A DNA stretch of 64,000 nt, taken from the NCBI GenBank assembly GCA_026770025.1, contig JAMXDE010000053.1:248001-312000 (forward strand). The letters are read 5' to 3'. This DNA comes from Craspedostauros australis. Lineage: Eukaryota > Bacillariophyta > Bacillariophyceae > Mastogloiales > Achnanthaceae. Below the pieces are notes generated by a model, which worked only from the letters and a program-made list of their open reading frames with translations, searched no databases and was not told where the DNA came from. Shown here piece by piece: positions 4,805-58,324 of this stretch (position 1 is its first letter; each line of letters starts with the position of its first letter). The position numbers and the translations under genes were made by a program.

Positions 4805-6262
4805 CTAATTACTCGACGACAAGAATACTCCAAGGCCATCCAGGATCGCATCAATCATCGATGTACCTTTCTTTTCCACATGACAAGCAGAAGGATCATC
4901 AACTCGGACGAGCCGATCCTCTCTCTTGTCATCCCATGCCTGTTTCAACGTCTCACTGCCCTGCAGCAGAATGTTGAAAGTCTCGCTCGTGGGATCCATT
5001 GTACCCATGAGACCCTCTTCAAACATTGGACCACGACGTTTGCTTGTTCTCATCAGCATCTCTCCAAACAGGGCCAGTGGCCGCGACCATGTTGAAAGGG
5101 AACACAACACTGCTGTCACCTTGTTGCGATGATTTCGCCGCAAGTTTTGTTCAACAAGCGCATTGTACGAATGGACATGTTCGTCAGGCGAGTCTCGATA
5201 AATGTCGAGATGGGTGAGTTGGGTAGTCTGCTCCAAGGCTTGCTGAAGTGCTTTCATTTGTGCCGAGAAGATCTCGGGCGCAACCTCAAACATGCTGGGG
5301 ACATCAAAATGACGATATCTGAGAGATGACAAGCTCTTGTTTCCCAGGAGCGAGATCAAAGTGTCGAACCTTGTCACCCCCTCTTGTTGCGATGACATGT
5401 CCCAAGTACAGGAAACCTCGAGCTTGTTCAGGTGTGATGCATCTGAAAGGAGTTTGATGATCTGGTCGATTTCTTGTTGTGAGTGGATTTGTTGAGTGTC
5501 GGAGAGCCGAGACCAATTGATGTTGAGCTTGTTGATGCGCTTGTTTGACTGGAATAGCTTTGCCAAGCTATCGCAAGTGATACGGGTGTCCCAAAAGAAT
5601 ACTTCGGTGACACTGCAATTGTTTGGAGACAGCCATCTGCACAAATCAGCGCCCCCATTGGTGAGCTTGCAGAAACAAAACGAAACGTATTTGGAGTTTT
5701 GGGAGATGTTGAACATGAGCTTGTCACAATCAACAAGATCACATGAATCAAAATGCACACGATGTGTCACAAGAGGGATATCATGGAGCTGTTTTATCTT
5801 CACGAAGCATGGAGGCAAGCAGATGCCTTCGCCGAATATAGATTTGGCTGGGCGTTTGGCAGCCAATCGAAGTACAAAGCGAATGGCTTGCTTGTCTTCT
5901 TCTCCGAATTGGTCATTGCTGCCGAATTTCAGATACAGGGATCCAATACCCATCCATCCGCTTCTCTGAAAAAGCGATTTGCTCAGTAGAACACGAGATG
6001 ATAAAGCAACGTGCTTGTGCCACCACTGCATCGATTCCAAGTCAGCGACGGTGAATCCTGCTTCGATGGCCATGTCCCAGTATTCCATCCGCTTGGGTGT
6101 GACACTGTAGCAGTCGATCTGCTGTCTTGAATGACTCTGTATATTGAATGCAGTCTTCGGAACCCACAATTTTCGATGGAGTTGTTTCCAGAAAGTCTTG
6201 AAGTCTGGATCATGATCGCTGTTGGTATTGGTGTTGGCGACAGCATCCATGTTGTGGTTCAT
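4805..6262 (-). CDS. LRR-like protein, copy 1 (485 aa)
   Basis: A single-exon gene of 485 residues starting at the ATG at 6262. Residues about 190-385 show irregular leucine-rich spacing (LCRWLSPNNCSVTEVFFWDT, INKLNINWSRLSD, LNKLEVSCTWD, LSSLRYRHFD, LTHLDIY), like the ribonuclease-inhibitor type. The N-terminal 190 residues match nothing I recognise. No signal peptide or membrane segment is seen, so a cytosolic or nuclear protein-binding role is likely. It is nearly identical to the gene at 14747-16204 for about 345 codons, then clearly diverged in the C-terminal 140 codons. LRR assignment is by eye. Confidence 0.75.
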   Translation of the reverse strand: MNHNMDAVANTNTNSDHDPDFKTFWKQLHRKLWVPKTAFNIQSHSRQQIDCYSVTPKRMEYWDMAIEAGFTVADLESMQWWHKHVALSSRVLLSKSLFQRSGWMGIGSLYLKFGSNDQFGEEDKQAIRFVLRLAAKRPAKSIFGEGICLPPCFVKIKQLHDIPLVTHRVHFDSCDLVDCDKLMFNISQNSKYVSFCFCKLTNGGADLCRWLSPNNCSVTEVFFWDTRITCDSLAKLFQSNKRINKLNINWSRLSDTQQIHSQQEIDQIIKLLSDASHLNKLEVSCTWDMSSQQEGVTRFDTLISLLGNKSLSSLRYRHFDVPSMFEVAPEIFSAQMKALQQALEQTTQLTHLDIYRDSPDEHVHSYNALVEQNLRRNHRNKVTAVLCSLSTWSRPLALFGEMLMRTSKRRGPMFEEGLMGTMDPTSETFNILLQGSETLKQAWDDKREDRLVRVDDPSACHVEKKGTSMIDAILDGLGVFLSSSN

Positions 6263-8286: not shown

Positions 8287-10074
8287 ATGAAGGCACTGTG
8301 GCCATTCGACGCTGCTATGCTATTTGCGGCGATGATCGCTGCGAGTGCAGCCCCAACAGCAAGCGCCATTGAGAATACAACGGTGAGTCACCCGGATCAT
8401 CGCACTCATTGCCCTCTGGTGGCCTTCACTGACGTCTTCCATGTTGGGTTCTTCGCCCGCTGAATCCGTACAATACGTCCATTCGTTCGTATACATGCAT
8501 GTATGTATGCATGTGTGTAGAATGTATGTATGCTCGCACTCACCTCGGACTCTTCCGTCAAATCCTCTCTCTCTCTCTCTCGCTGTGTTCACGCTGCCTG
8601 TACTTGCGATCATCACAACAAATCGGACGGAACGAATTCGCTCAATCAACTCGAACTGGAACGACTGTACCCCTCACAACAACTATGACATCACGCTGCA
8701 GCATCCCACACCGGCACCGCTTTGCGATGAATGGAGATTCGCAGCCACTGACGGAGATCTCTTGAATCAAACCTCTCAATCTCTCAGATTCGATGTATTC
8801 ATTGTTGAAGACGTTCAAATTAACTCCATCAAAGTGTTTCTGGCTCCTGGCTGTTCCAACATATCACACAAGATCTTCTTCCATCCCGGCATCTGGCAGG
8901 TGGACAGCGGGAATTGGACTCAGATCGCCTCTGGCAACAACGGAGAAGTCGACTCTGATGGTTTCACGGCCTCTCTTCCATTTGATTCGCCTCTGTCCTT
9001 TTCAGTGGATACTGGCCTGATTTCCTTTCGCATCGACATGGCAAACCGGCTGAGGAACTTCCGCGCGGACTTCCCCACCTTGCCTCGATCCACCCTTTGA
9101 AGGCTGCCCGAATTGCCCGTTCGGCGTATCTGTGGGACTTGCCAGCGTGGAAGTTGATGGCAATCCATCCAGCATCGTTCCAGATGTTGTATTCGCTTTT
9201 CCGGGAGTGTTCGAATTCTGTCGTGGCCTTGCCACTACAACGCCAACCGAATCACTCTCCCCTCCATCACAGCATCGCCGACAGCCTTGACATCTGTCGC
9301 TCCGACCCTGGCGCCGACAGCTACTTGTCGAAGCGTGGAAGCAGTGGGCCTTCCTCGGCTGCTCTTTTATCGACCAAGTGGAATCGCAGCGATTCGATAT
9401 TGAGGTGGTGGACACCGTCGATGTCACTGGCATGAGACCTGCTCTATCCACCGTGGGTAATCAACCATATTCCATCTTCTACCATCCCAGCTCATGGGAT
9501 GCGCCTGGTGCCTGGAGAGATTGCATCCGGAACCATCGAGGCGAGAGGCATCGACGAGTTCACCGATGTGATCTCGTTCAATCCACCGCTTTCTTTTTCA
9601 GCGAGCGATGGCATGGTCGCCATCCGCGTGGATACGCAGACAGAATCATTGAATGATGCCGCGGGGGACTTCGGGCCTACAACACCAGACTGGTTCGAAT
9701 GTGAGGGATGGCCGTTCATCATGTTCCCAGGGTTGTCAAGCGAAGAGGTTGAAGAGTATCCTGATGCCCCTTACGAAGGTTTCTGCAACTTCTTCATGGG
9801 ATCGTTGGAGTTCTGCAACAACGACTCTCTGACAGTGTTGGCTGCGGGCGCGCCATCGGACATGACATCTGCTTCACCATCGCTTCTGCCATCACCCGCA
9901 CCGTCGCCGTCGCCGTCGCCTTCGCCGTCATCCAGACCATCGTTCATGCCCTCGCCCACACCATTCTCCGCATCATCTTCTCAACCAACCCTGGCCTGGA
10001 GCACAAAGGGAGCGAAGGGATCAAAACCATCGAAAGAAAGCAAAACGAGCAAGTCCGCCAAATCATCCAAGTGA
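8287..10074 (+). pseudogene. Secreted two-module protein with KxxK tail, frameshifted
   Basis: The ATG at 8287 opens a signal peptide (MKALWPFDAAMLFAAMIAAS) in a 96-base exon. A GTGAGT donor at 8383 and an AG at 8701 join it in frame to 8702. Two similar modules follow. Module 1 (8702-9240) has RFDVFIVEDV, HKIFFHPGIW, WTQIASG, SLPFDSPLSF and FEFCRGL; module 2 (9327-9830) has RFDIEVVDTV, YSIFYHPSSW, IASG, FNPPLSF and LEFCNND. Pro/Thr/Ser-rich linkers separate them. The C-terminus is a KxxK ladder of eight lysines. Frame changes are needed near 9085, 9265, 9330 and 9500, so this is a recent pseudogene or an error-rich stretch. The modules match no family I can name. A link with silica targeting is inference. 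Confidence 0.7.
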
Positions 10075-10687
10075 TCAAGGAGCACCAATGTAGTGATGAT
10101 GGAGAGGCGATGATGGGAGAGAGTGGGAAGGGAGAAGATCGCTTGTGCCTGGTCATCGTTGGGCTGTGCGTCGGTGAAGCGGTGCACGACACTCGACGTG
10201 ACACTTGTCCCACGACGGAACTGTTCGCAACCACTTTCCGCGAAAGATCCCTCCGAGTGAAGTGGGTCACGAAATACGAGTCACGGAAAGCGTGATGAAA
10301 TGCTGCACTTGGCTTCAGTAGATGGTGAGATGACTCAGTCGAACACATCCATCTGTTGTCACGATGACGTCAAGTTGCCTTTTCCATCTGCTCCAAGTTG
10401 TCATACAACAATTTGAATTCTGAATGTCGCATACGACAACAAAACGTCACAACGACCACGCCGTCCAGCATCTCGATCGCCACAAACCGCACCGCACATG
10501 ACCCTGTTGTTTTTTTTTCTCACAAACCGCACCGCCCATGACCGTTTTTTTCACAAACCGCAACAAGGCATCAACACGGTGGTCAACATGCCCATGAACA
10601 ACAGATCAATGATTTCAAAAGACAACGCTGTACAACGCGGCAAGTGCAAGTTCTTTCGTTGTTCTCCTCGTCCTCCATTTGCCTCTT

Positions 10688-10695
10688 CATAAAAG
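10688..10695 (+). promoter_or_regulatory. TATA-like box
   Basis: CATAAAAG, 115 bases before the ATG at 10810. The same element with one extra A stands at the same place in B2. Confidence 0.4.
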
Positions 10696-10809
10696 GAGCA
10701 ACTTCGCAACACAAATTTTCGACACACACCCCTTCCACATCAACCGACGATTGATCTGAAGGAGCACTCCCCATCAGCACACGCACACATCCGAACGACA
10801 ACATCAACC

Positions 10810-11451
10810 ATGGCGAGTTCCGCAGACGACGACGAGAAAAAAGCGATTCGGGCACTTGTCCTCGCCTTGCGAACACTCGAACCCCACGAAGCGACACTCA
10901 CTCGCACTGACCTTCAGACCTTCGCTACATTCTCAAGAGATGCACTCCCCATGATCCCATTCTTCGAGGGGCGGCTGCCAATCTTGGGTATATTGGGCGC
11001 CTTGAGCGACGCGCTCAAGCATCAAGACGCGACACCGCAAGAGCATTTCGAGACGCTGCTTGACTGCATCAATCGGCTCCCGGCGCTGGATGGAAATACT
11101 CCAACGCGTCCTTGGACTGACTCTGGTGCCAGAGCCCTTCATGCGGCGGCCGTGGAAGCCATCTACGCCATGGTGTCCCACTGGCGGAAAGAAGGGAAAC
11201 AAAACAATCGTGGGCAAGCTGAGCAAATGCTCGTCATAGTAACGAGTCGCACCCCCAAGAAGTACGATGCGAATTGGTTGGCCAACACCATTGCAAGACG
11301 TGCCCGTAGAGCGGCGAACCAAGTTGCCACAGGTGTGAAGTCTGTCGGAGACGCAATTGCTGACAGTACTGGCATGCTAAATTGTTTCATGCCCAGCATT
11401 GCTAGCAATGCCAACAACGGCAACACCAACAGCGACGACAGCGGCAACTGA
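10810..11451 (+). CDS. Cassette protein B1 (213 aa), unknown function
   Basis: Single exon with a start context ACCATGG. It is mainly amphipathic helical: an acidic N-terminus (DDDEKKAIRALVLALRTL), a helical core (LPILGILGALSDALK, HAAAVEAIYAMVSHW), a basic segment (ARRARRAANQVATGVKSV) and an Asn/Ser-rich tail. No signal peptide or known catalytic motif. The promoter, leader and 3' region match those of the gene at 40320-41147, but the proteins align only as similar helix order (an acidic DE(D/E) start, LxxL, then a Thr/Pro turn near residue 100). A +1 frame overlapping the 3' end (from 11399) stays open as Ala/Thr-rich sequence to 11662. It is convergent with the P-loop ATPase pseudogene. Confidence 0.65.
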   Translation: MASSADDDEKKAIRALVLALRTLEPHEATLTRTDLQTFATFSRDALPMIPFFEGRLPILGILGALSDALKHQDATPQEHFETLLDCINRLPALDGNTPTRPWTDSGARALHAAAVEAIYAMVSHWRKEGKQNNRGQAEQMLVIVTSRTPKKYDANWLANTIARRARRAANQVATGVKSVGDAIADSTGMLNCFMPSIASNANNGNTNSDDSGN

Positions 11452-11754
11452 TACTGCTGTCCCTGAAGCGACAGCAGTCGCCGCTCTGCCACCTAGTGCA
11501 GATCAGGAAGCAGCGCCAACAACGGCAGCAGCGCCAACAACGGCAGCAGCGCCAACGACGACGACGACGACAACGACATCTACTGCTGGCCCACAAGCAG
11601 CAGCCGCCCCCTCCCGCCCCCTCCAACTAGTGCAGATCAGGACACAAACAGCACAGCCATGAGGGCAACGGAAAACGTAGTAAATAGTAATATAGTGCAA
11701 TGATTGAATAAATACTGACTTCTTACTTTAGTATCTGCTACAACTGTTCTACCA
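11452..11754. other. Ala/Thr/Pro-coding low-complexity tail and 3' region
   Basis: GCC/ACA/ACG-rich sequence with two copies of CTAGTGCAGATCAGGA (near 11493 and 11629). B2 has the motif once. The second copy marks where B1/B2 homology resumes. Confidence 0.6.
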
Positions 11755-12783
11755 TCACTTCGATGGTATTGTGTCCATGAAGATGAAGCGACGCGTTGGT
11801 GCAAGAATGATGCTGAGAACCTCAGCAGCCTGCAACAAATGCTGTTGGATCCAGGATGCATTCCGTTGCGTGACCTGACGCAGGATGGAGGCGAAGGCAG
11901 TCCAGATGGGTTCATATGGATGAATGTCTGATGTCGTCCCGATCGGCGGTTCGAACTTGGCGTATCCCAGGATCAGCACGACGTCGTGCCGTTGTTGAAG
12001 AAGTGTTGGCAGATGGCAGTCTTGCCGACGCCTGCAAAACCATCGACGATGACAATCTCGCAGCGGTTCTTGGATCACAGGTAGGCCTGCTTCAGTCTGC
12101 AGAGCTCATTGACCCGCCCATGAAACTGGATCGGCGGGGCGCGTGTGGGAAGTTATGCGTCGGCTCTTTCGACGGCATCTACTCCTCGTCCTCACAATCG
12201 ATCGACGGTCTGTCGTCAATGCGCATCGGGTGTGGTGACTTCGATCACCGTTTGCTCGGTGATGTAAGAGAATGGATCGGTCTGCTGACGGTCGACGCAT
12301 GTATCGATGCAGGATGATGGCTGGACTGCTCATCTGTGAGGTTGGTAAGGGTCGTCTGCAATGTTGCGACGGTGGCATCATCGATGAGAGATGAGTTGCG
12401 CATGGATCTGTTCGTCTGCTCTTCTTGTCTTGCGCGTAGGAATCGAAGCTGTGTGTGCGCGAGTATTGGAATGTGTACACTTCATTGTTGTCATTCGCCA
12501 TGTGGCAACCATCGTTGTTGTTGTTGCCATCATCGCTGGCAAAGTGTATCTTCCTGCCTGGGCCGTACCAACTCTCCAAGTATCGCATGCGTTCTTTGGC
12601 TGCTGCCAGTCTGTCTGCAATGCGGCCGTCTTCTTGGGATCGATGGGCGGTTGCTGTGTGGTTGGAAGTTGATGGTCGTGGCGGAGGTTGATGACTCCTG
12701 CAGTTGTTCTTGTCGTAGCCGCTGGTGTGGATGCTTGCGTGGTTGGCAGCTGGAGGTGTTACCAACGAGCCTGCATCCTCCAT
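11755..12783 (-). pseudogene. P-loop (AAA_16/STAND-like) ATPase remnant, B1
   Basis: Read on the minus strand, it begins MEDAGSLVTPP at 12783 with a disordered His/Asn/Arg-rich region, then PPIQFHGRVNEL followed by CEIVIVDGFAGVGKTAICQ, a textbook Walker A (GFAGVGKT), and after a frameshift GYAKFEPPIG and HPYEPIWTAFASIL. The order GR-x-x-EL, Walker A, GK(F/Y), PY-x-x-I-x-x-AF fits the AAA_16 ATPase module found in diatom kinases and STAND proteins. Stops and frameshifts (for example TGA just before SKNRCEIV) and loss of everything downstream make it non-functional. Compared with B2 it keeps the P-loop but lacks about 600 bases of linker. Confidence 0.75.
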
Positions 12784-13260
12784 CGAAGCCGTAGGCGGAG
12801 TCCGCAGGTGAAGCCTTTCCCAGAGTGGACGTTGGGTGTCATGTGTGGCGATCCATGATAGCTTCGGCTGCTGCTGCTGCTGCTGCTGCTGCTGATCGTC
12901 GTGGAGGTGTCGTCGCCCTTGTTGGTTGGATGGGCCATGGCGGTGTGAGCATAGTGCAATGGGCGCGAGACGAAGTGTTTGATGGAGGAGGTGCCTTCAT
13001 GGAGATCGACCATGGCCTCATCATCGGGTGCATCGATGTTCACGATGCTACTCGCATGCCGCTCGCATGCCGCTCGCACGTTGGTTGTGTTGGATGTGCA
13101 AGGAAATGGTTTTCTCGCTCGTGGTAATTTGTGGTTGTTGGTCGGCATCCGCCAAATTCCAACCAAGTTGCCAGCTCAACAAGATCCACAACAGAACAAA
13201 CCACTGAATTTTGGTGGGCCTCGCCTTTGAACGAATCAATCGCCAAAGAAATCACCTTTT

Positions 13261-14010
13261 CTGTGGTCCCAAATCAGTTGCGCTTGGATGGCGATTGTGA
13301 GCTCATCTGCTCAAGTTTGCTGTCCTCCATTCCATGATCCTGTGCATTGATCACGAAGCAACGTGTCGTCAGTCAACACGCCTGCATGGACTTGCGCGGT
13401 TCCACCACGGTGTATGGTGGTTCGGTGTGGTATGGTGTGGTATGGTATGGTACGACCGTGGACAGCCACATCCACGATCCGAAGCTGCCTAGCTCGCTCA
13501 CACGATACGACCTTCGATGATGCCCAACTTTGCCACGCTGTACAGTTTCGCCTCTTCATGTGATACCATAGGTCGTGTTATCTGAGTAGGCACATCCCTC
13601 TGTAATGGTCTTGGGGGAGTCAATCACGATACTATTATTATGCTCCGATCGATACGCTTCTTCGAGAGTTGGATGTTATCGAACGACTCCGATGGGCTGA
13701 TCCACGATGTGAAGAATCCACCACGATGACTTCTTCAGTGGAAATCAGAGGCGTTTCTCATGTTCTGTGGCGATGACGATGACGACGATGACAGCGATGA
13801 CAGCGATGACAGCGATGACAGCGATGATGAGCATGACACCACTCGTGTTTCAATCCACAACAAACGTATCCAGGACTCATCTCGCCTCACCCAATCGTCG
13901 CGAACGACAAATAGCAAGCCATTCGTTGTTTGGCGGTGGCGGCGACGATGACGACAGTGATGGTGGTGGCGCAACAGAAATCGCCGCTGCGAATACTGAT
14001 GCAGATCGCC
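13261..14010. repeat. Repeat module R, copy R2
   Basis: Third copy of R, without the LRR-like gene. It carries four units of the 9-mer GACAGCGAT near 13790-13830, where R1 has one. Similarity to R3 extends past the common tail to about 14000 (GAAATCGCC block). The next roughly 220 bases to A2 show nothing recognisable. Confidence 0.8.
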
Positions 14011-14746: not shown

Positions 14747-16204
14747 CTAATTACTCGACGACCAGAGTACTTCAAGGCAATGCAGGATCGCATCAATCAT
14801 CGATGTGCCTTTCTTTTCCACACCGCAAGCAGAAGCATCATCAACTCGGACGAGCCGATCCTCTCTCTTGTCATCCCACGCCTGTTTCAACGTCTCACTC
14901 CCCTGCAGCAGAATGTTGAAAGTCGCGCTCGTAGGATCCATTGTACCCATTAGACCCTCTTCAAACATTGGACCACGACGTTTGCTTGTTCTCATCAGCA
15001 TCTCTCCAAACAGGGCCAGTGGCCGCGACCATGTCGGAAGGGAACACAGCACTGCTCTCACCTTGTTGCAATGATTTTGCCGCAAGTTGCATTCAACAAG
15101 CGCATTGTACGAATGGACATGTTCGCCAGGCGGACGTGGACAAATGTGGAGATGGGTGAGTTGGGGAGTCTGCTCCAAGGCTTGCTGAAGTGCTTTCATT
15201 TGTGCCGAGAAGATCTCGGGCGCAACCTCAAACATGCTGGGAACATCAAAATGACGATATCTGAGAGATGACAAGCTCTTGTTTCCCAGGAGCGAGATCA
15301 AAGTGTCGAACCTTGTCATCCCCTCTTGTTGCGATGACATGTCCCAAGTACAGGAAACCTCGAGCTTGTTCAGGTGTGATGCATCTGAAAGGAGTTTGAT
15401 GATCTGGTCGATTTCTTGTTGTGAGTGGATTTGTTGAGTGTCGGAGAGCCGAGACCAATTGATGTTGAGCTTGTTGATGCGCTTGTTTGACTGGAATAGC
15501 TTTGCCAAGCTATCGCAAGTGATACGGGTGTCCCAAAAGAATACTTCGGTGACACTGCAATTGTTTGGAGACAGCCATCTGCACAAATCAGCGCCCCCAT
15601 TGGTGAGCTTGCAGAAACAAAACGAAACGTATTTGGAGTTTTGGGAGATGTTGAACATGAGCTTGTCACAATCAACAAGATCACATGAATCAAAATGCAC
15701 ACGATGTGTCACAAGAGGGATATCATGGAGCTGTTTTATCTTCACGAAGCATGGAGGCAAGCAGATGCCTTCGCCGAATATAGATTTGGCTGGGCGTTTG
15801 GCAGCCAATCGAAGTACAAAGCGAATGGCTTGCTTGTCTTCTTCTCCGAATTGGTCATTGCTGCCGAATTTCAGATACAGGGATCCAATACCCATCCATC
15901 CGCTTCTCTGAAAAAGCGATTTGCTCAGTAGAACACGAGATGATAAAGCAACGTGCTTGTGCCACCACTGCATCGATTCCAAGTCAGCGACGGTGAATCC
16001 TGCTTCGATGGCCATGTCCCAGTATTCCATCCGCTTGGGTGTGACACTGTAGCAGTCGATCTGCTGTCTTGAATGACTCTGTATATTGAATGCAGTCTTC
16101 GGAACCCACAATTTTCGATGGAGTTGTTTCCAGAAAGTCTTGAAGTCTGGATCATGATCACTGTTGGTATTGGTGTTGGCGACAGCATGCATGTTGTGGT
16201 TCAT
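14747..16204 (-). CDS. LRR-like protein, copy 2 (485 aa)
   Basis: Same length and architecture as the gene at 4805-6262, with the ATG at 16204. In codons 1 to about 345 I count only two or three amino-acid differences (residue 6 Asp/His; a Val/Met near residue 295). In the last 140 codons there are about 20, including TPQLTHLHICPRPPGEHV in place of TTQLTHLDIYRDSPDEHV and changes in the last 15 residues. Both copies remain open, so both are probably expressed or only recently duplicated. Probably a cytosolic protein-interaction protein; the function is unknown. Confidence 0.75.
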   Translation of the reverse strand: MNHNMHAVANTNTNSDHDPDFKTFWKQLHRKLWVPKTAFNIQSHSRQQIDCYSVTPKRMEYWDMAIEAGFTVADLESMQWWHKHVALSSRVLLSKSLFQRSGWMGIGSLYLKFGSNDQFGEEDKQAIRFVLRLAAKRPAKSIFGEGICLPPCFVKIKQLHDIPLVTHRVHFDSCDLVDCDKLMFNISQNSKYVSFCFCKLTNGGADLCRWLSPNNCSVTEVFFWDTRITCDSLAKLFQSNKRINKLNINWSRLSDTQQIHSQQEIDQIIKLLSDASHLNKLEVSCTWDMSSQQEGMTRFDTLISLLGNKSLSSLRYRHFDVPSMFEVAPEIFSAQMKALQQALEQTPQLTHLHICPRPPGEHVHSYNALVECNLRQNHCNKVRAVLCSLPTWSRPLALFGEMLMRTSKRRGPMFEEGLMGTMDPTSATFNILLQGSETLKQAWDDKREDRLVRVDDASACGVEKKGTSMIDAILHCLEVLWSSSN

Positions 16205-28295: not shown

Positions 28296-29363
28296 TCATT
28301 CAACGTCACACCGAACATACTTGGACGAAAACAACCCCGACCGGAAATCCTCTAGCAGCTGCTTCTTTTCGTGCAGCAGATTGTTGTTCCGCCGCGCCTG
28401 CACGGCCGCTCGATCGCGCTGCTGCATATCCAAGGCATGTTGGATCCATTCGATGCCGCCGACCCCCCAAACCTCAATGGCATCGACGTCGAAATAGTAG
28501 AGCGAATCGTCGCGCATCGGCAAGAGATCGCCATCCCGAAACGTCCCGCAGAATGGCAAGGCCCGACAATCTTCCAGCGTCTCGGTGATATGAATGCGCG
28601 ATTGATTATGCATGCCGCCGATGCGGATGCCATCGTCGTGCGTGCATCGCACAAGTTCGTGGTCAAGATGGGTGGATGGGAATACTTGGAGGATGCCATC
28701 GCGGATGGTGAAGACGAAGCAGTCGTTGGTCTTCGCGCATTGCTTCGTGGATTGCCACGACGTTGCGAGGTAGAGGCCGATCGTAGTGGCAGCACCGGTG
28801 CTGAACATGGTGACGCTGGGACCATCGTAGCCGTCGATGCAATGGCGCAACCGCGCATAGGACAAGCCATCGCCTTGCTGCGACGAGTAGAGACATTGCC
28901 AAGCGGCCGACAGGATGCCGGGATCCTCGTGCACGAGCTGGTGCTGCAAGGCTGGCGTCGTGAGGAAGATCGACGACTTGCCCTGCAGATCGGGCAGCGC
29001 GGGAACGTGCTCCCACTCGTCGTCCGTTTGGCGATGCTGCTGCAACCTCGTGAGCTTCTTCTGCTGCTGCTTCTTGGCCTTGCCAGCGCTGAACTGCGCC
29101 TGCTGCCAGGCCCGCAGCTCCTCCGCAGATGGCTCCATCAACGAGCTCTCCTCGCTTTCCGCATCGTCATCTTTGCCATCGTTATTGCCATCATTGAGGA
29201 GGTTCGACAGATCCATGTCGCCGAACTGCGACGTGAGCCGCGACAGCAGCTCCTTTTCGTCTTCCACTGCGTTGCTTGTCATGTTGCCGTTGTTGTTGTT
29301 GTTGCTTTGCTTGTTGTCGTCCGAGCATAGGAGTATAGTTGCGGATACGACCGAAGTGTGCAT
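28296..29363 (-). CDS. TLDc-domain protein (OXR1/NCOA7-like)
   Basis: TLDc proteins are linked to protection from oxidative stress and to binding of the vacuolar ATPase. This one has up to 355 residues; the ATG at 29363 or the one at 29282 (MTSNAVEDE) could be the start. Residues 1-125 are acidic and Gln-rich. The TLDc domain covers about 150-320: WQCLYSSQQGDGLSYARL, PSVTMFSTG, CFVFTI, GIRIGGMHNQSRIHI, CRALPFCGTF and the closing IEVWGVGG typical of the fold. A helical tail follows. It converges on the ABC1 kinase gene with only about 250 bases between stops. No introns are seen. Confidence 0.9.
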   Translation of the reverse strand: MHTSVVSATILLCSDDNKQSNNNNNGNMTSNAVEDEKELLSRLTSQFGDMDLSNLLNDGNNDGKDDDAESEESSLMEPSAEELRAWQQAQFSAGKAKKQQQKKLTRLQQHRQTDDEWEHVPALPDLQGKSSIFLTTPALQHQLVHEDPGILSAAWQCLYSSQQGDGLSYARLRHCIDGYDGPSVTMFSTGAATTIGLYLATSWQSTKQCAKTNDCFVFTIRDGILQVFPSTHLDHELVRCTHDDGIRIGGMHNQSRIHITETLEDCRALPFCGTFRDGDLLPMRDDSLYYFDVDAIEVWGVGGIEWIQHALDMQQRDRAAVQARRNNNLLHEKKQLLEDFRSGLFSSKYVRCDVE

Positions 29364-30218
29364 GCGACGACCGCTCTATTCAAACTGTTGGTCGGACGCG
29401 CTTCATTGTTGTGTTCTTCTTGCTTGCCGCGTGGCGTGTTCTTCTTCGATTGTCGCACTTGGCATTGTGCCACGTCGGTATTGTTCGTGTTCGTGTTAAT
29501 TGATCTGTCCGAAAGGTCACGATCTCATTTTCCAGGATTGTGTCCGTTATTTCCTTTGTACGCAGAGTAGTCAATCGAATCAAACGGGTTCTCCCTTTTG
29601 TGCTGTGACAATTCTTTTGCGAATGACATGTGACACGTCAGCCCGATTGTACCCGTATGAATCTGTAGAATCTGCATCGAATCTGAGAAAATTAGAACAA
29701 TGGCGGGGCGTTTAGTACCATGCCACTTCGTGAAAGTTGTGAGGTTCGTTGCTCGTTGAATTGTGAGGTCTTGGTCTTTCGCCCTTGGGAAGCAAGGATG
29801 CGAGGTTGCGCGACGTGGTGAGTTGTGAGGTGAGCGGAGACGAGTAGATGCGTGGTTGCTTGTAGTCGTATGTGTGGTGACTTGTCAAGGTGGAAAGCAA
29901 ACGTCGACGCCATCGCTGTTTTCCAACGTGCTTTGAGTGCAAAGGTCGTGCCTGTTCGATGCTTGCTTGCTCGCTCTCTATCGTGATCACAAAAAGCAAA
30001 GCAGCGCAAAGCAACGCAACGCAAAGTAAAGTAAAGCAAAGCAGCTCATCCCATTTCACTTGACTTGACTTGACTCCATTACAACACAACACAACACAAC
30101 ACAACACAACACAACACAACACAACACAACACAACACAACACAACACAACACAACACAACACAACACAACACAACACAACACAACACAACGCATTCGCAT
30201 ACGAGCACTTTGCCCAAC
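29364..30218. other. Promoter region between divergent genes, with pentamer arrays
   Basis: Lies between the TLDc gene (leftward) and the phosphate transporter gene (rightward). No gene is seen; the right half is repeat. Confidence 0.5.
29996..30190. repeat. Three pentanucleotide arrays in series
   Basis: Degenerate (GCAAA)n at about 29996-30045, (TTGAC)n at 30058-30075 and a nearly perfect (ACAAC)22 at 30081-30190, ending 28 bases before the transporter ATG. All have a 5-base period. Confidence 0.92.
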
Positions 30219-37291: not shown

Positions 37292-39445
37292 TGTCTTGTT
37301 TTGGCTTGGGTCTGCCTTGGGTCTGCCTTGGGTCTGCCTTGGAACGCTGGAGTGTGGATGTGAATGTGAATGTGAATGTGGATGGGAGCGTGGGAGCGTG
37401 GGAGCGTCGGAGCGTTGTGCCAATGGATTCGACTGTCGACTTGGTTGGTTTTTGTCGGACGGCCAGAACGATGACCTTTTTGCCATGGTGGTGTGTGTGT
37501 CTCGCATTGTTGTTGGTGTTGGTTTGCGAGAAAGTGGACCCGTGTCTTCCTTGTCCGTTGGGTCGCGTGATGCGCCAAATAGTCGAACTAGTCAACTCGG
37601 CGAGAGTTTGTCCACGAGTTACTCATGTTTGGTTCAAGGAATGCAAAGTCCTCGAGTGGCGCAGAGTATCACGAGACAAGAGCCCATCCGCTATTGGCAA
37701 GCTCTCTCTATTCGACTAAATTCAACTCAACTCAACTGAACTCACACAGATCATACCCTACTGCACTGTCTTCTGCATCTTGTTTTGTTCCAATTCAGGC
37801 CTATCACGGCTGTAGCACACTCGCACTACATCCTATTATTCCTCTTGAGTCCAATTCAATCCATCATATCGTTGGTGATTGAGCATTGTTGTTGTATCGT
37901 GTGTACGTATGGAGTCTGGAATGGATGCGTATCCAAGCATTGCCTGTGGCGCTGGTGTCGATGCTGGCTTCTACTCTGCCACCCACGCATTCATGCATGC
38001 GTGCATGCCTCAGCTCGGCTTTGATTTCATTCATCGGCATTCCGAGATATTTCACCGATCGCGTTTCTTCTCTCAGTCGCATTCCTCCCACACTTCATTT
38101 CCTCCTCCGCCTTCGGATTCACGATGCACCCATCTCTACACATGGGATACAACATGATTGGTTGCCTGTGGTTTGCACATTCGAAATGGTGGCGGCATTG
38201 CCTTGATTGGGATATCATTGCTGCCATGGGTCTGATCGACATACCATACGTGCGACTGGGCGCACATCGTCTCTCCACTGGGAGACTGCGCAATTCTTAT
38301 TCTTCTTGTCCAGATTTCATTCTGCCAGCTCCACCGACTTCCCGCTTGCAACGCTCCACTAACGCGCAAGGCAGGATATACGCGCATTGACGACGCCAGG
38401 CAAGCGATGCTCCACCAAGATGGAATGAAACGTGAAACAAGTAGAGCAGAGTAGTGAGTGCGTCGCCATCCATGGTGGGCTGTTGCAATTCGCGCGCATC
38501 TATCAACTTGAGTCGATCACGTGCTCAGCTTTCACACGACGATCATTGGGAGACATCGTTCTGTTTCCGACTCGTCCGCCTCACCTTTTGCAGCTTCTTC
38601 AGCATCAATTCCTTCGGCGTCGTTGCCGATGCCTCCACCAGCACCGTCTTTGTCCTCCAATCCGTCGGGACGTCGCTGCCACCTGCAATAGTGCAGCGTT
38701 GTTTTTCTTGAGGGAGAAATGCCATTGGAGGGACTGTTCCGACACAAGCTTGAGGGATGCGACGCAACGTTGTGGCGTGGGGCAACCAATGCCAGTAATG
38801 TCCGCGTGGAGTGGGACAAGTCGTCACGGCATGGTGAATTGCGCTGTCCATCCATCCTCACCGCCAAGAGCACGTGGCATCCAATTGCAATTGTGCAGAG
38901 TCCGGCATACCGTACATCCTCGAAGAGACTCCAGCACTCCTTTGCTGTGTTCTCCTCTGTTCTGTTCTTCTCTGCTTACCTTCAACGTTGGATAGCACAG
39001 TCTTGACGGCTCTCTCGCATCCTTCGCTGCAATCTCAGCATGAAATACAGACGAGCAAACAAAGGGGAAGCAAGGTTGGGCATGCGAGAATCGTCAGGTG
39101 TGAAAAATACCATGCTCCATTGCAATACATCATCATCATCGCTAGCATCGTAGTCACCATCATCATCCATCCAACTTCGTCAACTGCCAAGCAGCGCAGT
39201 CCGTTCATCCATCGATCCCATCGACACACGCACCATGGCATGCCGACATTGAGCCTCGCTTGAACCATGAGGCTGTCTCGTTTGTCTCGTACAGATGCTC
39301 GATACGATGTCACCCGTCCACTGGCGGTTGTTGTCTTGTGCGTGGTGTGTGAGGTGCCGCGTCCTATGTGCTATGTTCTACGCCCTATGTCCCATTTGCC
39401 ATGTGCGATGTGCTTTGTGCTATGTGCCATGTGCTATGTCGTGTT
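37292..39445. other. Intergenic region, no clear gene
   Basis: Between SEC24 and duplication B2. On the minus strand near 38550-38700 a piece with plausible splice signals (TTGCAG/GTGGCAGCG ... AAAG/GTGAGG) encodes VPTDWRTKTVLVEASATTP, perhaps a gene relic, but no full gene can be built. The last 80 bases are a short-period array. Confidence 0.4.
39364..39445. repeat. Short-period array at the edge of B2
   Basis: Degenerate repeats of CTATGTGC/CCATGTGC over about 80 bases, ending exactly where B2 homology to B1 starts (GATGGAGAGGC). Confidence 0.75.
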
Positions 39446-40214
39446 GATGGAGAGGCAGTGATGGGAAAGAGCGGGAAGGGAGAAGATCGCTTGTGCCTGG
39501 TCATCGCTGGGCCAGGCGTGGGCGAAGCAGTGCACGACGCTCGACGTGACACTTGTCCCACGGCGGAACTGTTCGCGACCACTTTCCGCGAAAGATCCTC
39601 CAAGCGAAGTGGGTCACGAAGTCCGAGTCACGGAAAACGCAATGAAAAGCTGCGCTTGTGATCAGTAGATGGTGTCATGACTCAGTCGAACACATCTATG
39701 TGTGGTCAAAGTGATGTCAAGTTCCAATTTCCATCTGCTCCAAGTTGTCATACAACAATTTGAATTCTGAATGTCGCATACGACAACAAAACGTCACGAT
39801 GACCACACCGTCCAGCATCTCGGTCGCCACAAACCGCTTCGCACATGACCCTGTTGTTTTTTTTTCACACAACGCAACAAGGCATCAACGCGGTGGTCAA
39901 CATGCTCATGAACAACAGATCAATGATTTCAAAAGACAACGCGGTACAACGCGACAGATTTCGATCGTGGATACACGTTTCTGCGCGTTGCAAGTTAGCG
40001 AGCATCCTTTCAAAGGCAACGGTCATGGCTTTGCATGTACCAAATACCGTTAGAATGAGCATGCGGATTGCGGCGTCGAAGCACAGAGTGCACAACATGC
40101 GCACTCACGTCGAGCTCCTCTCCAACTTTGAGCCACAGACATCGCGGTACAACGCTGTACAACGCGGCAAGTCCAAGTTCTTTCGTTGTTCTCCTCGTCC
40201 TCCATTTGCCTCTT

Positions 40215-40223
40215 CATAAAAAG
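40215..40223 (+). promoter_or_regulatory. TATA-like box
   Basis: CATAAAAAG, about 105 bases before the ATG at 40320, at the position equivalent to the one in B1. Confidence 0.4.
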
Positions 40224-40319
40224 AGCAACGCACTCTTGACACACACACCCCTTCCAAATCAACCAACGATTGATTTGAAGGAGCACCACCCACAAGCACA
40301 GACACCCATACATCCAACC

Positions 40320-41147
40320 ATGGTGACTTTCACAGACGAAGACCGCGAGCTAGCGATGCACGCACTTCGCTCAGTCATTCTATTTGTCAAGTCCTTCAAG
40401 GAACTCAAGCCGGATTTGGTTCAAGCCGTCCGTGACTTTTTCGATTTGGTGAACAGAACATTCCAAAACAGCGAGACCAAGAAGGGCATGATGAAAGATA
40501 CGAAGGCGGTAAGACTGTTTCTGTCGCAAAAAACCTTGGATGCTTCGTACCAACTCGACAAGCTGATGACAATCCTTGACCGTCGCCTGGGGTGGGACAA
40601 CAATGACCAAACGTATCCGACGACACCCACCGTTTTGGCAGACATTTGTAAACGTGTACAGGACGACGTGCGGCGACTGGCTGAGACCATCCAACGCAAA
40701 ACAAGCAAGGCGGTTTCTGAAGCCTGTGGTATCCTCGAAATGGCAGCCAAAAACCGCGTGGACGAGTTGAATGAAGCGATACGTCGCACCAATCCAGACG
40801 ACGAGGAAATGGCCGAGGGTCTGGATGGAGTTGAGGACGAGTGGGGAGATATCGTCGCCGGCTGGACCCATGAAACTTTCGGCGACCTGGCCGACTTTCT
40901 GGCTACTTGGCTTTGCGGCCCTCCAGACAATGTCAAGCGCAAGAGCAAGCGCAAGAGCAAGGGCAAGCGCAACCATACCGGTAGCAATCGCACCCGCACC
41001 CGCACCCGCAACCGCACCCGCAACCGCAACCGCAACCATAGCAGCGGCGGCGCCATCGGCAGCAGCAGCAGCGACAGCCGCCACGGCAGCGGCAGCATCG
41101 GCACCGACGGCGCTATCGGCAGCAACAGCCGCCGCTCCGCCAACTAG
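40320..41147 (+). CDS. Cassette protein B2 (275 aa), unknown function
   Basis: Start ATG at 40320 in context ACCATGG, like its B1 counterpart. The protein is mostly helical: an acidic start (FTDEDRELAMHALRSV), long amphipathic helices (LVQAVRDFFDLVNRTF, LADICKRVQDDVRRLAETIQ, VSEACGILEMAAKNRVDELN), an acidic patch (NPDDEEMAEGLDGVEDEW) and a basic tail of KRKSKRKSKGKR and RTRTRTRNRTRNRNRN, which could be a nuclear or nucleic-acid-binding tail. There is no signal peptide. It occupies the same slot as the 213-aa B1 protein between conserved flanks. A +1 frame at the 3' end reads Ala-rich then PPTSADQ, as in B1. The helical arrangement suggests a rapidly evolving paralogue, but replacement by a foreign frame cannot be excluded. 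Confidence 0.68.
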   Translation: MVTFTDEDRELAMHALRSVILFVKSFKELKPDLVQAVRDFFDLVNRTFQNSETKKGMMKDTKAVRLFLSQKTLDASYQLDKLMTILDRRLGWDNNDQTYPTTPTVLADICKRVQDDVRRLAETIQRKTSKAVSEACGILEMAAKNRVDELNEAIRRTNPDDEEMAEGLDGVEDEWGDIVAGWTHETFGDLADFLATWLCGPPDNVKRKSKRKSKGKRNHTGSNRTRTRTRNRTRNRNRNHSSGGAIGSSSSDSRHGSGSIGTDGAIGSNSRRSAN

Positions 41148-41339
41148 TGCAGATCAGGACACGAGCAACAAAGCCCTGAAGGCAACAGAAAAACGATAGT
41201 AAATAGTAACATAGCACAATGATTGAATGACACTGACTTCTTACCTTAGTATCTGCTACAACTGTTCTACCATCATTTCGATGGTATTGTGTCCATGAAG
41301 ATGAAGCGACGCGTTTGTGCAAGAACGATGCCGAGAGCC

Positions 41340-42547
41340 TCAGCAGCCTGCAGAGCTCCTTGACCCGCCCATAAAACTGGATCGGCGGGCCACGTGGTCG
41401 AGGCTGCTGTCTTGCTGGCTCCTCCAATGGCGATGATAGAAAGGACCGCTCATCATCGGGCTCATTTGACTCAGGCTTGCGCTTGAGATGTCATTGGACT
41501 TCTCCAATAACGAGCTCGGATTGTGCGCCACCTGTTTCGCATATCGTTTGCAGTAGCTGCGTGCGACTGTTGTTGTGATCCAACTCACCATCAAAGTGCG
41601 ACGATGAGGCATCCGTGTAGTAGCTGCGAGACAAGGATGTGGGACTTCCTGATTCGTATGTAGAGAGCCTTGTTGCGCTGTGGACCGTGGATGCATCTGA
41701 TTCGAAATTCGTGGTGAAGGGCAACTTCCAGGCGTCGACGTTCGGCAGCAGGAAGGAAGGACATCGGGATCTGGCTGTTGTTGGGAGACAGTCTCTGCAA
41801 GTTTCGACGTGTTGTTGGCTGTTGCTGTTGCCATCAATTGCACTTGCTGGGCGAAGTTGGGCTGGGCAAGATCATTGGCATGATTTGCATCATGCTCAAT
41901 GATCGAAGCAGCAGCAGTAGTTGCATGAGTTGGATCCTCCTCCTCATCCTCCTCATCATGATCATCATCATTCGTGCTGCGAAGCCGACGGTTAGGCTTC
42001 TGAATAGCGGAGGTGGGCATGTGGGGGAGCTTATGCGTCGGTAATTTCGACAGCATTTGCTCCCAATCTTCACGAGTGATCGGCGGCCTGTCATCAATGC
42101 GCATGTGTGGCGATTCTGATCGCCGTTTGCTGGGCGATGTCAGAGAATCGATCGGTCTGCCGACGGTCGACGCATACATCGATGCAGGATAGCGACCGGA
42201 CTGCTCATCGGTGAGGGTAGTGCATGTCGTCTGCAACGTTGCGACGGTGGCATCATCGATGCGACATGGTGGCCATCCTTGTTGTTATTGTCAGCATTGC
42301 TGGCAAAGTGCAGCTTCCTGCCTGGGCCGTATCGATTCTCTAAGTATCGCATGCGCTCCTTGGCTGCTGCCAGTCTGTGCGCAATGCGGCCGTCTTCTTG
42401 GGATCGACGGGCGGTTCCTGTGTGGTTGGAAGTTGATGGTCGTGGCGGAGGTTGATGACTCCTGCAGTTGTTCTTGTCGGAGCTGCGGTTGTGGATGCTT
42501 GTGTGGTTGGCAGCTGGAGGTGTTACCAACGAGCCTGCATCCTCCAT
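41340..42547 (-). pseudogene. P-loop ATPase remnant, B2, Walker A deleted
   Basis: Starts MEDAGSLVTPP at 42547 like B1. Frames shift near 42270 (to IDDATVATLQTTCTTLTDEQ) and near 41740 (to FESDASTVHSATRLSTYESG), and a TGA lies between VIGEVQ and HLKRKPESNEPDDE. It ends with PPIQFYGRVKELCRL joined directly to LRLSASFLHKRV, so the whole Walker A segment seen in B1 (about 260 bases) is missing; the joint lies at CCTGCA, present at both B1 breakpoints. It keeps the long acidic, disordered linker (DDDHDEEDEEED) that B1 has lost. Confidence 0.75.
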
Positions 42548-43011
42548 CGAAGCCGTAGGCGGAGTCCGCAGGTGATGCCTTTCCCAGAGTGGACGTCAGG
42601 TGTGATGTGTGGCGATCCATGATAGCTTCGGCTGCTGCTGCTGCTGCTGATCGTCTTGGAGGTGTCGTCGCCCTTGTTGGTTGGATGGGCCATGGCGGTG
42701 TGAGCATAGTGCAATGGGCGCGAGACGAAGTGTTTGATCGAGGAGGTGCCTTCATGGAGATCTACCACGGCCTCATCACAGAGTGCATCGATGTTCATGA
42801 TGCTACTCGCATGCCGCTCGCACGTTGGTTGTGTTGGATGTGCAAGGAAATGGTTTTCTCGCTCGTGGTAATTTGTGGTTGTTGGTCGGCATCCGCCAAA
42901 TTCCAACCAAGTTGCCAACGCGACAAGATCCACAACCAGAACAAACCGCTGAATTTTGGTGGGGCTCGCCTTTGAACGAATCAATCGCCAAAGAAATCAC
43001 TTTTTCTGTGG

Positions 43012-44413
43012 TGCGGCGACACAGACACGTTCGTCAGAACAGTTGGTTTGTCGGACCGAACAAAAGCACAGTGGCACTTCGGAGGCACTTGCGAGAACGT
43101 TTGACACCAAGAAAGCATCATCGTTCCGGACGTGTCAGAGAGTTCTCCCAGGACTGACTTTTTGGAACTCCAAGACACAACAAGCGCATCAAACTCACGT
43201 TCTGGGAGTTGTCGGAAAAAGAGAAAATCGCGTTTTTTGTGTCGGAGTCTGTTCACAAATGACAAGAAACTGCCAGTTGCCAGTTCGCCACACGTGATGG
43301 AGCGCACTCGATTCGAGATGTTCGACTCATACGACTACTACAAGAATGCCGAGTTGGTTCACGAGAGCAAACGATCATTTCTGAGTCCCGCATTGTGGCG
43401 TGTGTGGAGATGGGATTTCCTCGCTGCGGCGGTGTTTTGGTGTTGCTCATTCTCGTCACACTTTGCTGCGGTGGTCCGGAAAGCGCACTGTCGTCTTGGT
43501 TGGCAGAACAAGTCCTTGTCTTCTGGTTTGTTGGCTTGTACTACTGTTATATTGAACTCATCAAAAGCCCACCAGGGACGATCGAGTATCGTTCCTGACC
43601 CCACGCCATTTACCTTCTTGACGATGTGATGCGTTTGATTCCCATCAGTGAGAGTTGCCTGTAGGGTAGAGTGCAAGGAATCCACCAGCAGTATCGCACG
43701 GCAAAAAATCACCACAATGCGAGGTGGCCTGATGACCAACCACCAATCGTCACTCTTCACATCGTTATGCACTGGGTGTCACTCTCATCCATCTTTGTGC
43801 AACATTGATAGCAGCAGACTCAAGGAGTAGCAGCCCAATCGATGTTGATAGAGTATGAAGCCTTGTCCCATGCAATGATGTCAGAGCTGATCACGCGCCA
43901 ACACGCTACATTTTGTTGCAACATGTGCAGACCGCGCACGCACACCGCAGCATACTCCCTCTGGAGAGAGAGAGAGAGAGAGAGATCGTACCTCCATGGT
44001 CGCGTTGTTGAGTCTCGTATCGTTGAATACGAAGCAATGTTGTACACACTCAAGCGAAAGGGGTTCCTCGATTGGGTCTCCTTCGCTGCGCTTTGTTCTC
44101 GAGTTGACTGTCTGAAGAGCGCACACAATTTGGCGCACACAGAGTAGTGCAGCGCTTTCTCATCGTGCTGCGCTTACGTGCTCGTTGACGTCCTACCCAT
44201 CCCAGAATTGCTGCATTGTCTCACAGTTTAGGACAAGGTGTGGTGTATCTGGTCAATAGAATAGTTGAGAATAGATCTAATGCAATTATAGTATATGAGT
44301 GGTGGTGCAGTGCTCTTCTATTTGCCGGATTCGACGCGATTCAATCTCCTGGTTGCTGTTGCAAGATGCGTTCCAGACCACGAATCCCTCAGTATTGTTG
44401 AAACTTGTATGAT
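43012..44413. other. Left part of the candidate Harbinger element, unassigned
   Basis: Includes the left inverted repeat (43204-43246), a (GA)n tract near 43967-43984 and several partly open frames (for example FEMFDSYDYYKNAELVHESK near 43315-43375) that match no family I recognise. Confidence 0.4.
43204..43246 (+). repeat. Left subterminal inverted repeat (43 bp)
   Basis: Begins GGGAGTTGTCGGAAAA and ends TGTCGGA. Pairs with 49205-49247 in inverse orientation. Confidence 0.7.
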
Positions 44414-50732: not shown

Positions 50733-52382
50733 CTACACCCCATGCTCCTGCTGCCAAGTCGAAAGGAAATCAGCGATCTCATTGTGACCAAGATCTGCAG
50801 CAAGACGAGCAGGTGTGCAATTGTGGCATAGCGCATTGATGTCAGCATTGTCGAACTCGACCAGATACTTGACAACATTCAAGTGACCACTGGCACATGA
50901 AATATGAAGTGGGGTGATGCCGCTGATGTTGTGTGGGTTGACATTGACGTTGGAAGAGTCCAGAAGATACTTCACAACATTCAAGTGACCGCTGACACAT
51001 GCAGCAAAAAGTGAGGTGACACCTTCATTGTCTTGTGCGTTGACATCAGCGTTGGAAGATTCCAGAAGATACTTCACAACATTCAATTGACCGCTGGCAC
51101 ACGCAGCAAAAAGTGAGGTGACACCTTCATTGTCTTGTGCGTTGACATCAGCGTTGGAAGATTCCAGAAGATACTTCACAACATTCAATTGACCGCTGGC
51201 ACATGCAAAATGAAGTGGGGTGAAGCCGTTACTGGCTTGGATGTTGACCTCAATATTGCCCAATTCCACCAAGCATTTCACAACTTCCAAATGGCCGCAC
51301 AAGCATGCCCCATGTAATGGAGTGAGGCCTTGGTGGATTTGTGTATTGGCATCAGCGTTGGAAGATTCCAACAAATATTTGACAACGTTCGAATGGCCAC
51401 AGGCGCAGGCAATAAAAAGCGGAGTGGCACCACGAGCATCTTGGACGTTGACATCAGCATTGCATGAGTCCACCAAGTACTTCACAACCTCCAAAGGGTC
51501 ACCTCCAGAGCACTCAACATTCAATGAAGCGCATTGATTCCACCTCTGAAGATTGACAGTGGGACATAACTCGACCAGGCGCTTCATTGCATCCGAAGCA
51601 CCACGTCGGCATGCATAATGCAGCAGCGTGCAGCCAGCACTATCCACGATAGTCACATCGACGTTGAGCGATTGCACCAGATACTTCATGCAGTCCAGAT
51701 GACCTCGCGAGCATGCCCATTGAAGTGGAGTGAGGCCGCGAGTGTCCCGAACATCAATGTCTGCATCACATGAGTCCACGAGATACTTCGCGCAATCCAA
51801 ATGACCTTGATGGAAAGTGCACTGGAATGCAGTTGCACCACGGAAACCAGGGATGGATATGTCAGCGTTGCATGCTTCCACCAGGTACTTCGCACAATCC
51901 AGGTGACCATTCCAGCATGCTGACACAAGCGGGGTGCTCCCATTGTTGGCTTGGATGTTGATATAGGTCGAGCTTGATTTCACCAGATACTTCACACAAG
52001 CCAAGTGGCCTTTGCTGCATGCTCGATGCAGGAGAGTCTTGCCATCGTCATCCTTGATGCTACCGTGATCGTCTCTTGGGTTGTTGTTCTTCCACTCCTT
52101 CAACATTGTCAGATTCCCGTTTGTGGCAGCGCGAAGGAGTTTGTCTTTCGTGATGTTGGACATGTCGGCGTCATGATTGTTGGCTGTGACGTGTGGTGTG
52201 TTGGTATTGTGTGAGTGGTGTCCGAAAGCTGAAGCAATCCGCGACAGTACATTGCGGATGCATGAAGAATAGAAGCACATCGTGTGGACGTGACGAGATG
52301 ATGTGAGTTGTTGCGGATGTGATATGAGAGGAATGGAGTATGTATGCGATAGAAGTTTGATTTGCGCAGAGGATTCATTCAT
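50733..52382 (-). CDS. Ankyrin-repeat protein (549 aa)
   Basis: A protein-protein interaction scaffold; the partner is unknown. Single exon with the ATG at 52382. After about 85 unstructured residues come about 13-14 ankyrin repeats, almost all 33-34 residues, with the consensus G-x-TPL-x-x-AC-x-x-GHL-x-x-VKYL-V/L-E/D-S-x-N-A-D-V-N. Repeats 10 and 11 (both FAAC/FACASGQLNVVKYLLES) are nearly identical even in DNA, so the array is still expanding. Repeat 7 is odd (NQCASLNVECSGGDPLEVV). No membrane segment or other domain is present. A decayed relative lies at 20500-20990. Confidence 0.95.
   Translation of the reverse strand: MNESSAQIKLLSHTYSIPLISHPQQLTSSRHVHTMCFYSSCIRNVLSRIASAFGHHSHNTNTPHVTANNHDADMSNITKDKLLRAATNGNLTMLKEWKNNNPRDDHGSIKDDDGKTLLHRACSKGHLACVKYLVKSSSTYINIQANNGSTPLVSACWNGHLDCAKYLVEACNADISIPGFRGATAFQCTFHQGHLDCAKYLVDSCDADIDVRDTRGLTPLQWACSRGHLDCMKYLVQSLNVDVTIVDSAGCTLLHYACRRGASDAMKRLVELCPTVNLQRWNQCASLNVECSGGDPLEVVKYLVDSCNADVNVQDARGATPLFIACACGHSNVVKYLLESSNADANTQIHQGLTPLHGACLCGHLEVVKCLVELGNIEVNIQASNGFTPLHFACASGQLNVVKYLLESSNADVNAQDNEGVTSLFAACASGQLNVVKYLLESSNADVNAQDNEGVTSLFAACVSGHLNVVKYLLDSSNVNVNPHNISGITPLHISCASGHLNVVKYLVEFDNADINALCHNCTPARLAADLGHNEIADFLSTWQQEHGV
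50990..51195. repeat. 102-bp tandem repeats within the ankyrin gene
   Basis: Two consecutive, nearly identical 102-base units (34 codons each) containing GCGTTGACATCAGCGTTGGA; a third, more diverged unit adjoins. Confidence 0.9.
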
Positions 52383-57634: not shown

Positions 57635-58324
57635 GAGCTGCACTAGCACATCACAACATAGCATAGTATAGCATACAAGCATTGTATGGTGTGTATTTGT
57701 TGCGCTCTGCTCTATTCTACTCTGCTCCACCAATACATGACAATCGTGCTAGTGCGGTGCCGTCGGCAGGGCACGAGCAGAGATGAATGATCATAGGATG
57801 CATCGTTGATGCTCCAGTGACGAGTACAGACGCGTGGACCTGACGGCAGCAAAGATCGCGAGGGTTGCACATGTGTGATGAAAAGGAAGTGGAGTACTGG
57901 CATGGTACGGTGTGGTACAGACGTACGAGTGTGGTACCAACAAAGAGGAGCCTTTGCCATTCGATTGGTTTGCGCAACACACACCGATTGTGCTGGTGCT
58001 CCAGTCGACGCAGTTGAGGCCTTGGAGCGTTTTGTGTGTGTGGTTCGGCTGGAATTTTTCCGACCAGAGCGGCACGACACAACGCGATGGCTCCACGACG
58101 CACACCATTCACGACACAAAAATAACGGTCTGCGTCACAAAATCACATCACTCATCACAAAACACAAAACACAAAACACAGAACACAAAACACAAAACAC
58201 AAAAACAACTCAAACACAACACATCACATCACAATCCTCCATGCCATCAAGCAGACGATGCGCACACCACCATTCGAACCACAGGTGTACCTCCAACATA
58301 TAGTTCTACTACTACGATTTGCAG
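57635..58324. other. Intergenic region with 7-mer array
   Basis: No gene seen. (ACACAAA)n at about 58157-58206. Confidence 0.5.
58157..58206. repeat. 7-bp tandem array (ACACAAA)n
   Basis: About seven units with one substitution, about 120 bases beyond the stop of the transposase gene. Confidence 0.85.

Follow-up and report, generated by a model that had tools for sequence, protein, structure and literature searches.

A dispersed ten-locus gene family in Craspedostauros australis with flanks patched by gene conversion and a coding part under diversifying selection

Venom genes, for example those of snake phospholipase A2, combine conserved untranslated regions with accelerated coding evolution and a ratio of nonsynonymous to synonymous substitution rates (dN/dS) above 1, and encode disulfide-rich secreted proteins. 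RXLR effectors are secreted by a plant pathogen, and the poison and antidote of the wtf meiotic drivers, made from one gene, span the membrane. In Phytophthora the RXLR effectors form an expanded, recently duplicated and rapidly evolving family (PMC3820680). The wtf family of Schizosaccharomyces pombe is multicopy and dispersed, with many pseudogenes, pervasive nonallelic conversion that includes promoters, and very diverged syntenic genes (PMC6526906, PMC13160552); the genes are split into several exons, with one presumed promoter for the antidote and another for the poison (PMC6526906), a text in which the term "positive selection" does not occur. Here we describe a family of variable open reading frames (ORFs) represented by two loci, B1 and B2, in a stretch of 64,000 nucleotides of the Craspedostauros australis genome (contig JAMXDE010000053.1, positions 248,001 to 312,000; hereafter the window). 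The promoter, leader and 3' flank of these loci are kept alike and patched by gene conversion, while the coding part shows diversifying selection, and B1 and B2 belong to a dispersed ten-locus family that is probably engaged in an intracellular conflict (arms race), with promoters homogenised by conversion. To our knowledge, few such conflict genes are known in alga-like eukaryotes.

The original prediction took B1 and B2 for a two-locus system and proposed aligning their flanks against the whole genome. In the search of this one eukaryotic genome (74.8 Mb, 90 contigs; 61 matches to the light-harvesting family indicate a photosynthetic host) 12 places matched the leader and 13 the 3' flank, with two further fragments of the latter at C51:104k. 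Three copies at contig ends are probably the same DNA assembled twice: C74:135k differs from C4:3365k by 0 mismatches and 8 gaps in 7 kb, C13:1858k from C35:647k by 9 mismatches and 48 gaps in 6.1 kb, and C74:147k (truncated where its contig stops) from C4:3351k by 10 mismatches and 56 gaps in 4 kb. Because these three were dropped from the 13 places, ten distinct loci remain: C51 215k, 226k, 258k (B1), 287k (B2) and 318k; C4 3351k and 3365k; and C35 513k, 552k and 647k. The two-locus system is refuted by this count, and B1 and B2 are far from being the only two loci. Family loci lie at the contig ends or overlaps of C4/C74 and C35/C13, and these repeats are therefore the probable cause of the breaks in the assembly. 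Searching the genome with the proteins of B1, B2, 226k and one C4 locus yielded no member beyond the known loci, the counts being lower bounds. An intact ORF is present at six of the ten loci and stops relative to relatives at the other four, so that the family contains both duplicates and broken copies.

The block boundaries of B1 and B2 were taken from self-BLAST of the window. On the 5' side the two loci match at 10088-10525/39436-39872 (89% identical) and 10545-10639/39859-39953 (95%), on the leader side at 10622-10781/40149-40300 (87.5%), in the 3' flank at 11614-11834/41129-41352 (89%), and downstream at 12132-12393/42008-42268 (80%) and 12509-13267/42273-43012 (92%); nothing matched across the ORFs, from the 5' blocks to 11614/41129. 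These blocks confirm the common promoter, leader and 3' flank of the original prediction. Its statement that the two ORFs show no DNA similarity holds for the ORF body (+20 to +450), where a forced global alignment gave 42.7% identity, the level reached when B1 was aligned with 30 shuffled versions of 226k (mean 42.0%, maximum 46.9%); a trace of similarity survives in the first ~15 codons.

Between the shared flanks we distinguished five ORF types. Type I consists of B1 and 215k (52% identity over 213 residues, one TAG in 215k), type II of B2 and 318k (ORFs identical), type III of 226k (31% to B2 over 190 codons), type IV of C4:3351k and C4:3365k, and type V of the three C35 copies, all of which carry stops against type IV and two of which (513k and 552k) are 45-48% identical to it. 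Type I proteins start with MASS- and the others with MVTFTD-, and the first ~15 codons retain traces of one common start in all types. Among 11 sequences (the ten loci and C13; 55 pairs), identity was 79-100% in the leader and 84-100% in the tail, against 37-48% for ORF bodies across types, about the shuffled level; the cross-type exceptions were 226k/B2 and 226k/318k (61%) and IV/V (67-70%). Within types the ORF bodies ranged from 68% (B1/215k) to 100%. The B1 and 226k ORFs are not reliably alignable (dN 1.04, dS 0.99).

The strongest evidence on selection comes from B1 and 215k, the ORFs of which differ at 153 of 591 bases (codons 1-197), compared with 104 differences in ~4.6 kb of flanks; bins downstream and in the leader were mostly at 0-3%, and 8 of 16 upstream bins at 5-11%. 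A dN/dS test, which had been suggested for ORFs that can be aligned, counted 143 nonsynonymous and 13 synonymous changes (dN 0.371, dS 0.094) and gave a ratio of 3.9 by counting and 6.2 by maximum likelihood (p = 1.2e-9). Of the six frames, frame 0 gives the highest dN/dS (3.98, p = 7.5e-8) and is alone in being free of stops in B1. In a model-free count over codons 1-150, 56, 58 and 26 of 150 bases differ at codon positions 1, 2 and 3 (p = 5e-6), the third positions being the conserved ones, and behind the 215k stop (codons 152-199) the differences are 5, 4 and 3 of 48 (8%), even as if neutral. Three estimates agree on a neutral divergence of about 7-11% for this pair: the gene's dS (0.07-0.09), the dS of the upstream ORF (0.09-0.11) and the post-stop stretch (8%). 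Multi-base changes are a known source of false selection signals (PMC6332903); they are not the sole maker of this signal, because codons with a single difference still show 54 nonsynonymous versus 5 synonymous changes (p = 0.003). Charge was altered in 47 of 99 replacements versus 34% expected (p = 0.003). We concluded that the coding part of B1/215k has diverged in amino acids far faster than the neutral level over its first ~150 codons. These codon statistics support extremely fast ORF evolution, one of the two explanations offered in the original prediction.

Three other pairs point in the same direction. Four of six variable-ORF pairs, including B1/215k, had a dN/dS above 1 at p < 0.05, compared with none of three controls above 1. 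By likelihood the ratio was 2.06 for 226k/B2 (p = 0.002) and 1.91 for 3365k/513k (p = 0.03), and 3351k/3365k differ by 9 nonsynonymous and 0 synonymous changes (p = 0.01), with 7 of the 9 in codons 43-66 and three being E to K. B2/318k and 3365k/C74 are identical, hence uninformative. In the controls, the upstream ORF gave 0.81 for B1/215k and 0.64 for B1/226k by likelihood (0.56 for B1/215k by counting; 15 pairs at 0.29-0.92 by counting), and a duplicated 485-residue ORF gave 0.99. The case for diversifying selection is thus overwhelming for B1/215k, and three further pairs support it.

Several points weigh against the reading of a conflict family. The overwhelming codon evidence comes from B1/215k only, the likelihood model ignores multi-base mutations, and one reverse frame of this pair reaches a dN/dS of 2.35, with 4 stops in B1. 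The contrast between strongly hydrophobic positions (23 of 57 changed) and others (76 of 143) is modest, 215k carries an in-frame TAG at codon 151, and four of the ten copies look broken. The 226k/B2 and 3365k/513k results depend on alignments of 31% and 48% identity, with the third codon position only mildly conserved (98, 76 and 71 of 190 differences by position in the former, 39, 52 and 33 of 140 in the latter); 3351k/3365k reaches only p = 0.11 by a simple binomial; and 552k/647k (1.90, p = 0.26) and 513k/647k (0.39, p = 0.16) were not significant. Profile comparison linked type I to neither II/III nor IV/V, and both the intracellular role and the opponent are things we infer. The stops in four of ten copies and the two nonsignificant C35 pairs would also suit neutral relics, i.e., old duplicates with decaying ORFs whose flanks stay alike by constraint or conversion. 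Such decay predicts a dN/dS of ~1 and even codon positions; over codons 1-150 B1/215k departs from both, and within this comparison even change is seen only behind the 215k stop. We therefore regard neutral relics as very improbable.

The flanks themselves are mosaics from gene conversion between loci. Over the 402 bases preceding the ATG B1 and 226k have 4 mismatches, as against 52 over the 695 bases upstream of these (p = 3e-7), and the similarity vanishes inside the ORF. At the positions differing between B1 and 3365k, the 3' flank of 226k is B1-like at the first 10 sites, then 3365k-like at 10 of 11, then B1-like at 32 of 35 (permutation p <= 5e-5). The tract and the mosaic together establish nonallelic conversion that includes the promoter. 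A 192-bp segment is absent from both B1 and 226k, whose ORF types differ, and 215k has the ORF type of B1 yet retains it. Counted from the ATG, B2 and 318k show 0 mismatches between -100 and about +2870 and one at -200 to -101. These two loci are 30 kb apart, and in the comparison of 318k (L061) with window positions 38400-43204, 55 of 60 mismatches fall at -1000 to -501. A common tree could not be rejected by approximately unbiased (AU) topology tests (p = 0.44 for the leader, p = 0.08 for the ORF); the evidence for a change of partners is therefore the tract and the indel, and trees do not contribute. The second explanation of the original prediction, swapping of ORFs between fixed flanks, was borne out in the form of gene conversion; as tree incongruence it was not.

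A stronger form of swapping would have ORFs exchanged wholesale from diverged donors, with little role for selection within them. The B1/226k tract up to the ATG, followed by different ORF types, is what such cassette replacement would leave, as is a block of different codons with sharp boundaries in C35:552k (L067; codons 7-22), which lies between identical stretches. No second copy of this block was found in the genome at <=3 mismatches over 27 bases, the searches with four proteins returned no donor outside the known loci, and B1/215k can be aligned end to end, its third positions being conserved and its dN/dS 6.2, all of which makes wholesale exchange unlikely. A mobile element with a fast-changing passenger gene would account for the dispersal over three contigs besides the overlaps and for matches from B1, 215k, 226k and C4 that start at the same B2 position; the right match ends differ among copies and the upstream genes were copied too, and we consider an element highly unlikely.

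The products of the intact loci are small proteins that have a low-complexity tail and 1-5 cysteines. A hydropathy scan of nine family proteins found no strongly hydrophobic 19-residue stretch (highest value 1.31), hence no signal-like N-terminus, no membrane anchor and nothing like the membrane-spanning feature of wtf. The structure predicted for B2 from nine family rows has seven helices, at a mean predicted local distance difference test (pLDDT) score of 47.8 with no residue >=70; the helical character claimed in the original prediction thus reappeared in a weak model. Profile-profile comparison linked II/III with IV/V at the start (24 columns, E 5e-6). Pfam gave nothing above cut-off for six family proteins, IMG/VR viral contigs gave no relative of three used as queries, and PDB sequence searches with three gave no row for P0007 or P0001 and one weak row for P0003 (M protein, E 0.55). 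A resemblance of the N-terminus MVTFTDEEK..ALW to beta-type globins was dropped after the P0007 search of PDB (no row, E up to 10). The products look soluble, as judged from hydropathy, and helical, as judged from the model; the charge and hydrophobic pattern agrees with a changing surface over a helical core, weak as the B2 model is.

For the conflict family that we favour, the proteins may form the variable side of an intracellular conflict in which a virus, a mobile element or a selfish gene is the opponent, and the surface of a helical domain would be selected repeatedly for change. Every variant would stay under the same control through conversion of the promoter that the loci share, and divergence of the ORF would halt conversion at the ATG; conversion could not erase the variants, because too little homology is left inside the ORF. 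A broader proposal, which we rate as rather doubtful, is that the family exemplifies a class of selfish or defence genes in photosynthetic algae, in which promoters that spread and stay uniform through conversion drive ORFs whose surface is rewritten to the point where sister copies cease to look related, and an N-terminal helical domain sets self/non-self specificity (toxin/antidote or host/virus).

The coordinates are collected in Table 1. Downstream, a convergent AAA_16-like gene was duplicated together with the unit. The original prediction had called it an ATPase relic; AAA_16 (PF13191) was matched in the better preserved C35:513k copy (34.7 bits, cut-off 32.6), and the piece adjoining B1 itself had no Pfam match. 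Nothing was found that ties this neighbour to the function of the ORF. The 485-residue ORF used as a control occurs twice, at 4805-6262 (-) and 14747-16204 (-), flanking B1; the copies are 94% identical in DNA and have no Pfam match, the frame being open yet changing as if neutral. Beside C51:226k, L060:5895-7097 holds a 400-residue ORF that by eye is a candidate Harbinger-type DDE transposase. Elsewhere in the window are a TLDc-domain protein (PF07534) at 28299-29363 (-), a perfect 10-base tandem array at 30081-30190 with a related stretch at 58150-58234, and an ankyrin-repeat protein at 50736-52382 (-), the repeats of which are alike in DNA too (50863-51495).

Table 1. Features of the B1 and B2 units in the window.
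Feature	Position	Strand	Basis
Upstream ORF, 191 aa, duplicated with the unit, control	9499..10074	+	no Pfam match
B1 promoter and leader	10408..10809	+	near-identical tract with C51:226k, 4 mismatches/402 bp
TATA-like CATAAAA in conserved leader, putative	10688..10694	+	aligned across loci
B1 variable ORF, 213 codons	10810..11451	+	ORF list, dN/dS
B1 codons 1-150, site of replacement excess	10810..11259	+	codon-position counts
3' flank common to B1, B2 and other loci	11614..11834	+	self-BLAST, genome search, alignment
Decayed convergent AAA_16-like gene	11758..12105	-	reading frames; Pfam match in C35:513k copy only
Downstream duplicated block, B1 side, in common with B2	12132..13267		self-BLAST
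B2 5' flank block	39436..39953	+	self-BLAST
192-bp segment, in B2, 318k and 215k, not in B1 and 226k	39957..40148	+	gap between matches
B2 leader	40149..40319	+	self-BLAST, genome search
B2 variable ORF, 275 codons; identical copy at C51:318k	40320..41147	+	sequence comparison
B2 3' flank	41129..41352	+	self-BLAST
B2 downstream duplicated block	42008..43012		self-BLAST

Taken together, a whole-gene dN/dS of ~6, conserved third positions and an agreeing neutral level strongly indicate that change has been selected for repeatedly, and they point towards a so far unnamed conflict in an alga-like eukaryote. The ten loci with one promoter type are ready targets for finding the selecting opponent, and promoter conversion bounded by the ATG is directly testable as a general means of keeping variable gene families. 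A literature search with diatom terms gave no description of such a family in the part of the hits that was seen, which does not show that none is published.

As a special case of the conflict reading, the family might be a poison-antidote (killer) family like the wtf meiotic drivers, in which variants must differ to escape neutralisation by old antidotes. The multiple and broken copies and the promoter-including conversion match what is reported for wtf (PMC6526906); the single-ORF genes lack membrane segments, and none of the hits just mentioned was a paper describing such a system in diatoms, so that this special case appears improbable. The family differs from wtf in its single ORFs without membrane segments; from venom proteins in having no signal-like N-terminus and 1-5 cysteines; and from RXLR effectors in having no signal-like segment and in its photosynthetic host (61 light-harvesting matches). 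Like venom genes, its flanks are more alike than its coding part, with a dN/dS above 1; like RXLR effectors, it is expanded, recently duplicated and rapidly evolving; and like wtf, it is multicopy and dispersed, with broken copies and conversion that includes the promoter.

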